Below are positions 54,432 through 57,357 of a stretch of 60,585 nt of DNA, piece by piece. Numbering within the stretch: the stretch's first letter is position 1; the number at the start of each line of letters is the position of its first letter. The position numbers were made by a program, and so were the translations under genes. The DNA lies in IMG/VR virus record IMGVR_UViG_3300034110_000180, positions 1-60,585 of that record; one strand, written 5' to 3'. The notes under the pieces were generated by a model, which was not told the DNA's origin, made no database searches, and saw nothing but the letters and a program-made list of their open reading frames with translations. The DNA comes from a virus.

Positions 54432-54606
54432 GTTGAGCCTCCTCTTGTTGCATGTCGGACGTATGTTTTTTGGCTTTTTGGTACGCCAAATGGTACTTTT
54501 CCATGGCAATTCGGGTCATTTCAGCCGAGGAAACGCCCTTTTCTAAGGCCATAACACGGTATTTTTCGATCAAATCTTCCGGCAAAAACATGTTGCAGCG
54601 CTTCAT
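54421..54606 (-). CDS. Ribbon-helix-helix DNA-binding protein, 61 aa
   Basis: MKRCNMFLPEDLIEKYRVMA, then LEKGVSSAEMTRIAMEKYHL fits a short CopG/Arc-type RHH: a beta ribbon of residues 2-7 and two helices. It is the first gene of the leftward block and overlaps the small terminase start by 11 bases, so it may regulate the late operon. The three RHH proteins of this phage (also 56500 and 57004) may cross-regulate. Confidence 0.75.
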   Translation of the reverse strand: MKRCNMFLPEDLIEKYRVMALEKGVSSAEMTRIAMEKYHLAYQKAKKHTSDMQQEEAQHGS

Positions 54607-54711
54607 TTTTGGTCCTTTTCGGCGGTTTTTGGGGTGGTGTGTATGTGTATGGTAAGGCTTTTTTTGTTTTTTGGGGGAATTTTGAGGGGGTGGGGGCTTT
54701 GCGGCGTAAAG

Positions 54712-54725
54712 GTGTGTATACACAC
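54712..54725. promoter_or_regulatory. 14-bp perfect palindrome, possible operator
   Basis: GTGTGTATACACAC. The TATACA of the leftward strand inside it lies 17 bases after CCGACA, so a weak leftward promoter may overlap it. As such it could be an operator for the late block, for example for the RHH protein encoded at 54421. Confidence 0.45.
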
Positions 54726-54812
54726 AGTTGTAATTCTTGTCGGGCTCGGCGGGAGCGTCGTAAGCATACCGGGGGCCGGGGGGTGGGGGTGGGGGGCCTG
54801 TGGGGGGTGCCC

Positions 54813-54864
54813 GATTATCAAGGATGCCTAGGTTGTAGGGACTCTGGATTATCAAGGTTGCCTA
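54813..54864 (+). repeat. Two 18-bp direct repeats (17 of 18 identical)
   Basis: GATTATCAAGGATGCCTA (54813-54830) and GATTATCAAGGTTGCCTA (54847-54864), 34 bases apart from start to start. They lie right before the predicted RNA, so they may be protein-binding sites for its promoter or origin-type iterons. Confidence 0.75.
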
Positions 54865-55410
54865 CAGTAGAGCGATGATCGCATCGTCTCACCCCGCTAA
54901 GTGCAAGCGACTTGTGCCGGTATCAATCACATGACGTAAGTCATCGTGGCTATGCTGGGCAACACGGGCCAAGTGCATGGGGAAAGTGTCCTTTAAAAAT
55001 CTGCAATCAGGTGTCAGTATGGTGCGGTGACAGCGCCCTGAAATTGACCTGACCTAAGTTCACCGGGTAAGTGTGGGCTGACAAGCATCCGGGGGCATAG
55101 TCTCACGGCCAAGCCAAGATACTGCACTGGGGTATCTGTACGGCACTGCGGTATCTGTCGGGGTAAGAGTCCCTGCAGGTAGGGCGGTAGCGGAAAGACG
55201 CTACACGGGCAAAGTGTTCGCCGTAAAGGGACACGAGGGTATCAACGTCACCCGGTACAGAAAGACGAGAAAGCCACCCCACGAAACAAAAGCAAAAAGC
55301 TGGCCTAACCACCGACATACGGAGTGGAGGGTGCGCGAACACGGGCAGGTTACGTCACAACGTAGCGAAATCCCCTAGTAGGCTATACGGTTTTGCCAAA
55401 CCAAAACGTG
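54865..55410 (+). ncRNA. Candidate large structured RNA, about 540 nt
   Basis: Hairpins seen on the + strand: GCGATG/CATCGT (54872-54887, loop ATCG); GTGCAAG/CTTGTGC (54901-54917, loop CGA, two G-U pairs); ATGAC/GTCAT (54931-54944) with a GNRA-type GTAA loop and outer CAC/GTG; GGTGC/GCGCC (55021-55037, one G-U); AGATAC/GTATCT (55117-55137); a nested set GTCCC/GGGAC (55169/55232), GGCG/CGCC (55183/55222), GTAGCG/CGCTAC (55187/55204); GTTACG/CGTAGC (55349-55366, one G-U); GGTTT/AAACC (55389-55402). G-U pairs fit only the + strand, so the RNA runs rightward. No coding frame covers it. Limits are approximate. Not tRNA, RNase P or tmRNA as far as I can see; it may be of the large ornate phage RNA class (GOLLD or ROOL-like) or new. 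Confidence 0.6.
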
Positions 55411-55491
55411 GGGTGGGCTTTTGAGAGCGCATTGCATGGTGTAGTGCGTTCTTTCAAGCTCATTCAATCATTCAACCTCGAAGGAATAATC

Positions 55492-55941
55492 ATGTCCAAC
55501 CAAATCGCAGTCCAAGAAATGCAAGTGTCGATCTATAACAACGCCGCCAATGGCGGCACGGTCACAATGAATGCCAAGGGTAAGTCCGGCTCGTTTGCCC
55601 GTGCCATTGCGTTTGCGAGTCGTGAAGCCCGTCAAAACCTCTCAGCAGGCATGATGCTCAGCCAACTGCAAAACGGCCAGTATCGCCCTCTCGTTGCCGA
55701 CATTCTTTCGTGTGGCCTGATTCCCAAAGCCAACTTGGATTGGGTGTCTGCTTCCATCCCTGCAACTGGCCCCGTGAACAAAGAGGCATTGATCGGTCTG
55801 TGCAAGCAAGTCAAGACCGTGTACGACAACAAGCGCACAAAGAACGGCGACCCCGTGGTGCTCAAGGGTGAGAAGGCTTTCGTCATGGGTTTCGTCCAAG
55901 CCATCGTGGCTGATGTGGCCGAGGTCACCATTGACGCTTGA
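55492..55941 (+). CDS. Hypothetical leading protein of the rightward block, 149 aa
   Basis: ATG 55492 (MSNQIAVQEMQVSIYNNAAN) after CGAAGGAATAATC. The frame is open further upstream but over the RNA region. It is well-formed alpha/beta, with no Cys cluster (one Cys in SCGL and one in LCKQV) and no membrane segment. Being the first gene after the divergent gap and followed by a 20-bp palindrome, it is probably expressed on its own. Function unknown. Confidence 0.8.
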   Translation: MSNQIAVQEMQVSIYNNAANGGTVTMNAKGKSGSFARAIAFASREARQNLSAGMMLSQLQNGQYRPLVADILSCGLIPKANLDWVSASIPATGPVNKEALIGLCKQVKTVYDNKRTKNGDPVVLKGEKAFVMGFVQAIVADVAEVTIDA

Positions 55942-57003: not shown

Positions 57004-57357
57004 ATGGCCATGAAAACCTTCACACTTCGCCTGCCAGATGACGACCACGCACGACTGATGGCAGCAGCTAGCGCCGCAGGGCTGTCGATGGGTAGCTACC
57101 TGATTAAGCTGCTCGATGCAGACACAGGGCACACACGACCTCTCAAGCCAACGAAGGTTGGCCGCAGAGAGCTGGCCTTCGCCAAATACAACGAGCTCAT
57201 GGCAAACATCCCACCGAAGGACACATGGACTACGCAGATGTTTGTTGACCTGTGCTATCAGATACGACTGCTCAGGTACAGCGGGGGTCAGATACCGCTG
57301 GCCGAGATGCCATACCCTGAAGAGTTTCAGGAATGGTACAGGCTACCACCCACATAA
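57004..57357 (+). CDS. RHH-type DNA-binding regulator, 117 aa
   Basis: MAMKTFTLRLPDDDHARLMA, then GLSMGSYLIKLLD is an RHH N-terminus; the rest parallels the previous protein. It starts right after its stop (TGA then ATG), behind CCGGAGGAC within the codons for PED. So again the end of one gene encodes the binding site of the next. A strong terminator follows. Confidence 0.8.
   Translation: MAMKTFTLRLPDDDHARLMAAASAAGLSMGSYLIKLLDADTGHTRPLKPTKVGRRELAFAKYNELMANIPPKDTWTTQMFVDLCYQIRLLRYSGGQIPLAEMPYPEEFQEWYRLPPT

Follow-up and report, generated by a model that had tools for sequence, protein, structure and literature searches.

The analyzed window covers 60,585 bases and corresponds to one virus record of IMG/VR. 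In this window, a gap at positions 54865-55491 separates a leftward terminase block, encoding TerL and portal, from a rightward gene that starts at 55492. The genes at 1-24 kb, among them those for a family A DNA polymerase, a helicase and a primase/helicase, also run rightward, in the same sense as the gene following the gap. Judging from this gene direction, a circular or permuted genome would make the gap the beginning of a single long unit read rightward. ARAGORN found no tRNA genes within the window. Shortly downstream, an ORF at 57004-57357 (+ strand) showed a match to the HicB family (E 2.2e-5, above the curated cut-off).

The two direct repeats preceding the gap (Table 1) probably mark a promoter or regulator region; a pattern search recognized no sigma-70-like promoter near 54813-54864. 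The 34-nt spacing of the units is identical in about 20 relatives, which show at least two versions of the sequence. Some relatives carry a very different repeat of the GACCAGTAGT type in the same position, as if the binding specificity had been swapped. A G-rich tract at 54760-54810 adjoins the repeats and is found in most relatives.

Within the gap, the longest open reading frames comprise 79 aa (minus strand) and 54 aa (plus strand). Because stops and indels interrupt both of them in the closest relatives, a coding explanation was rejected, and the preliminary description of this DNA, which had called the gap free of genes, was right in that no credible gene is present.

Table 1. Features of the gap and its immediate surroundings, in window coordinates.
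Feature	Position	Strand	Basis or remark
Two 18-bp direct repeats in 34-nt tandem units	54813-54830, 54847-54864	+	Repeat comparison with relatives
Whole element	~54870 to 55456	+	Extends slightly past 55410, the end given initially
5' hairpin, loop around AUCG	54870-54890	+	Two-sided stem changes in relatives
5' domain, a single long hairpin with interruptions and a GUAA tetraloop (54936-54939) at its tip	54892-54982	+	Close relatives
boxA-like element GTCCTTTAAAAATC	54988-55001	+	10/11 to GYTCTTTAANA
Hairpin AGATACT/GGTATCT	55117-55137	+	TAACGCT/GGCGTTA in L003 and L004
Stem 55152-55157/55176-55181 around hairpin GGGG-UAAGAGU-CCCU	55152-55181	+	Read by eye
Conserved 3' domain	55183-55270	+	R1 match and pair counts
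Hairpin Pa, loop ends GAAAGA	55187-55192/55199-55204	+	3' domain
Pb, GGC with GCC	55208-55210/55220-55222	+	3' domain
Pseudoknot, loop GTGTTC with GGACAC	55214-55219/55229-55234	+	Covariation, independent of R1
Hairpin Pc, loop ACCCGGTACAGAAA	55246-55249/55264-55267	+	3' domain
Terminal stem	55273-55283/55407-55418	+	Holds branched 123-nt insertion 55284-55406
Last hairpin ahead of ribosome-binding site	55424-55454	+	Relatives: hairpin of differing sequence in the same place
First rightward gene, 149 aa	55492-55941	+	No Pfam/PHROGs family, no fold match

Folding energy left it doubtful whether the gap encodes a structured RNA. The preliminary description had expected an energy lower than that of shuffled sequence; the stretch 54865-55410 instead equals shuffled sequence on the plus strand (minimum free energy z -0.42, with 36/100 shuffles equally good), and the minus strand gives z +1.10. 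When the folded stretch is extended to 55463, it becomes remarkable in energy (z -3.4) because of its last 195 nt (55268-55462, z -4.68). The plus-strand z-scores of the relatives are mostly weak. Folding energy is a poor guide for this RNA, which would have been missed by an energy criterion alone; comparative evidence was therefore sought, and covariation settles the question.

For this comparison, about 120 IMG/VR loci, some sharing a contig, were collected via TerL and the downstream gene. Their gaps are homologous yet diverged and modular, with constant ends and exchangeable middle parts. The 3' domain was first aligned for 22 sequences. Given a four-helix structure, 84% of the cells in this alignment are paired, 16/18 pairs show two-sided changes, and covariation amounts to 0.608; slid structures reach at most 0.152, and 0/500 shuffles score as high. 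Since shuffles ignore the relatedness of the sequences, sliding provides the fairer control. A covariance model built without the pseudoknot (R1) found the domain in 31/92 sources at 44 bits or more (next match, 12), and scanning the viral collection with DNA patterns added 13 contigs at 40 bits or more (next, 21.8). All members score at least 40 bits and all other sequences less than 22. At least 43 IMG/VR contigs plus the window carry the 3' domain, resulting in 44 known members, and the window itself scores 56.4 bits (E 9.7e-15). Across the family, helices Pa, Pb and Pc and the pseudoknot display compensatory changes. Searching 369 genomes from the same class as a Stutzerimonas genome with R1 returned three matches of 23-25 bits, which were judged to be chance (summed expectation of about 0.06 for the best of them).

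When 37 members (35 distinct sequences) were aligned by fitting to R1, covariation over all helices reached 0.666 versus at most 0.133 for slid structures, with two-sided changes again in 16/18 pairs. The pseudoknot, which is absent from R1, reached 0.463 on its own, which 0/500 shuffles equaled; slid structures gave at most 0.273. Among the cells of the 3' domain, 20 G-U/U-G stand against 3 A-C/C-A combinations, and the RNA strand is therefore the plus strand, as proposed initially from wobble pairs. In close relatives, at least seven hairpins, including helices of the 5' and the central domain, are backed by two-sided changes, in agreement with the many hairpins first noticed in the sequence. 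When the longer 3' region was aligned with MAFFT (A4), the T-loop-like hairpin described below was misplaced, and this alignment was left out of the counts; a list of 5' hairpins had been selected for pairing and was excluded as evidence. Overall, the compensatory changes that the preliminary description had asked for in homologous gaps are present, and they strongly support its central proposal that the gap encodes a real, large structured RNA on the plus strand.

Several details of the architecture changed upon comparison. The proposed GNRA-type loop was confirmed as GTAA, which is kept while its stem shifts from ATGAC/GTCAT to ATGGT/ACCAT. Of a nested three-level stem, only the inner GTAGCG/CGCTAC (ACAAGG/CCTTGT in L003) stands, and the two outer levels are wrong: the outer GGGAC is part of the pseudoknot strand GGACAC, and the GGC at 55208-55210 forms Pb with the GCC at 55220-55222. 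A real RNA does occupy 54865-55410, but the element continues beyond this end to about 55456. The 5' hairpin, which shows six two-sided changes and no broken pairs in L003 and L004, may occupy a boxB-like position. The hairpin GGGG-UAAGAGU-CCCU is also supported by changes in close relatives and appears T-loop-like by inspection. Two unpaired loops, GGAAAGAC and ACCRAGAACAGMAA, are conserved among the members. Two adjacent 19-nt imperfect repeats lie inside the RNA at 55120-55157, the first largely within a covarying hairpin. The branched 123-nt insertion in the terminal stem has no homologue among the collected loci or in plasmids and is possibly an inserted RNA element.

The RNA showed no relationship to known families. 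Rfam 15, which covers GOLLD, ROOL, OLE and group I introns, gave no match in this RNA when the window was searched at the gathering threshold, none for 54600-55500 at E values up to 10, and none for the RNA of eight relatives at E values up to 1. Likewise, the gap and two other RNA types had no blastn match among cultured phages, and the open-access papers searched describe nothing alike. The preliminary description had left the choice between GOLLD/ROOL and a new class; as none of the Rfam models matched, a new class is preferable. We call the gap RNA a new RNA family and, as a presumed phage leader RNA with boxA, an unusually large and elaborate one.

Ahead of the core, nearly all members carry the motif GATC(A/T)TTAAAAATT. 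boxA, the NusB-S10 site of rRNA operons, has the consensus GYTCTTTAANA (PMC5725501), which the phage motif resembles. Sense-strand matches to this consensus are enriched ahead of the RNA: at 9/11 or better, 30 gaps contain 38 sense versus 4 antisense sites (shuffled mean 9.6, maximum 19). These gaps are homologous and not independent draws, but the flanks of the motif vary far more than the motif itself. The exact consensus occurs in L122 and L243, while the window site has one mismatch and, taken alone, is not significant and expected by chance. Several relatives carry two boxA-like sites, as do rRNA operons (PMC4807359). boxA is missing in L023, L026, L031 and L040, where the R1 core is missing as well, and L068, which has no standard boxA, shows the looser variant GCCCATTAACAA. 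Short leaders with boxA and without the core were found in L002, L007 and L122, and boxA function therefore needs no such core. The Pseudomonas rRNA spacer contains TTCTTTAAAAATTTGG about 140 nt before the 23S gene, close to the phage motif; an assignment of this spacer sequence to betaproteobacteria was rejected. The variant TCATTAAAAATTTGGGTAT was not found in the 369 genomes mentioned above.

Next to its structure, the position of the RNA is conserved. Wherever the contig permitted a look, it stands just upstream of the first rightward gene, with the end of the 3' domain 60-220 nt ahead of the start codon, and the family precedes at least three unrelated-looking protein families. Two of the downstream protein families showed no fold match using AlphaFold and Foldseek (window protein: pLDDT 74, moderate confidence), and tblastn of two downstream proteins against phages found none. 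In the four loci lacking boxA, another structured RNA without an R1 hit occupies the same gap, followed by another downstream protein family. The pseudoknot arms of this replacement RNA change together (CCGGG/CCCGG to UAGGG/CCCUA) and adjoin a constant AGCGCC/GGCGCU stem. At L247:2607-2713 (+), Rfam Atu_At1 matches the leftward strand with 84 bits (gathering threshold 60), at a site upstream of the terminase side; Atu_At1 is described as a Rhizobiales sRNA, and a similar sequence is visible in L122.

Taken together, we consider it likely that the gap is the structured 5' leader of a rightward, probably early or replication, unit in which boxA and NusB-S10 keep the polymerase processive. This reading is favored because the RNA heads an operon, precedes at least three protein families and can be replaced by another RNA; such a variety of downstream protein families would also be less expected for a dedicated RNA-protein pair than for a leader. 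The preliminary description had recognized the structured RNA, but neither the boxA-like element nor the pseudoknot nor the operon-leader position. Transcription would start near the tandem repeats, and the 5' hairpin and boxA-like site would load host NusB-S10 as in rRNA operons. RNA polymerase would thereby become Rho-resistant, crossing about 600 untranslated nucleotides, where Rho would otherwise end transcription, and continuing into the operon. The RNA might be tethered to the polymerase, so that the core, with its T-loop-like hairpin, pseudoknot and terminal hairpins, folds properly; its role would be mainly in cis, with an additional action in trans conceivable. In reporters, NusB-S10 on boxA shields untranslated RNA from Rho, and a 567-bp non-coding 5'-UTR, a geometry that appears close to the gap leader, caused Rho termination that boxA relieved partly (PMC4807359). 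NusB-S10/boxA has further been proposed to tether nascent rRNA to the polymerase and thus to aid its folding (PMC4807359). Against the leader reading, no promoter is recognized, boxA leaves the strong conservation of the core unexplained, the boxA of the window is at chance level by itself, and four relatives have none.

A rival possibility is a free-standing, trans-acting phage RNA of the GOLLD/ROOL kind, cut near the terminal hairpins and working as RNA or RNA-protein particle, where boxA would be present because the transcript is long and untranslated, like rRNA. The elaborate core, whose 3' domain is universal and whose 5' part varies, the conserved unpaired loops, the strong hairpins that separate core and gene and might serve as processing sites, and the exchange of the RNA as a cassette are all in favor of this possibility, which we nevertheless regard as doubtful: the RNA always lies directly upstream of a gene, no terminator of its own was recognized, and there are no tRNA genes nearby. 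Somewhat more speculative still is a new class of large phage RNA whose synthesis and folding would resemble those of ribosomal RNA, using host boxA/Nus signals, and that would serve the infection as a trans-acting machine of RNA or of RNA and protein.

A riboswitch or autoregulatory element, in which the leader senses a ligand or protein and controls translation of the gene at 55492, would agree with the 5' UTR position and the strong hairpin immediately before the ribosome-binding site. It seems improbable, however, given that unrelated-looking proteins follow the same RNA family and that their start codons lie so far past the 3' domain. That the hairpins act as DNA, in an origin or packaging site, is suggested by the neighboring terminase genes, tandem repeats and G-rich tract, and the repeats outside the core may be a DNA element; for the core we consider this very improbable, as one strand accepts G-U and avoids A-C, which indicates selection at the RNA level. 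Finally, a non-functional spacer with chance hairpins would explain the shuffled-like energy of 54865-55410 and the weak z-scores of most relatives, but is refuted by the covariation of 35 distinct sequences, which far exceeds that of slid and shuffled controls, and can practically be dismissed.

Few large phage RNAs are known, and the gap RNA adds a well-supported structured family. Its association with boxA/Nus signals offers a testable idea of how hundreds of untranslated nucleotides could be transcribed and folded, and R1 and the 44 members make transcriptome searches and antitermination reporter tests possible.

Comparing the gap RNA to known systems, GOLLD and ROOL are likewise phage-borne RNAs of hundreds of nucleotides with pseudoknots, large and ornate and often located near tRNA islands, and GOLLD combines a universal 3' part with a variable 5' part (PMC12286853), as does the gap RNA. 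Unlike these, the gap RNA has no Rfam match and no tRNA in the window, and stands as an operon leader with boxA; GOLLD and ROOL form a homo-oligomeric RNA cage. The antitermination regions of rRNA leaders and spacers (boxA; NusB-S10-NusA-NusG-SuhB) share a boxA-like site ahead of a long structured untranslated RNA, a hairpin preceding boxA and, as in several relatives, two boxA-like copies. In the phage, in contrast, a phage-specific RNA and then a protein-coding operon follow instead of ribosomal RNA, and the Nus link is putative. Further parallels are lambda nut and HK022 put, phage cis-acting antitermination sites in which an RNA element heads an early operon. We know of no sequence relation of the gap RNA to either, and no N-like antiterminator was identified for it. 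Compared to nut and put, the gap RNA is several times larger and is composed of several domains including a pseudoknot.
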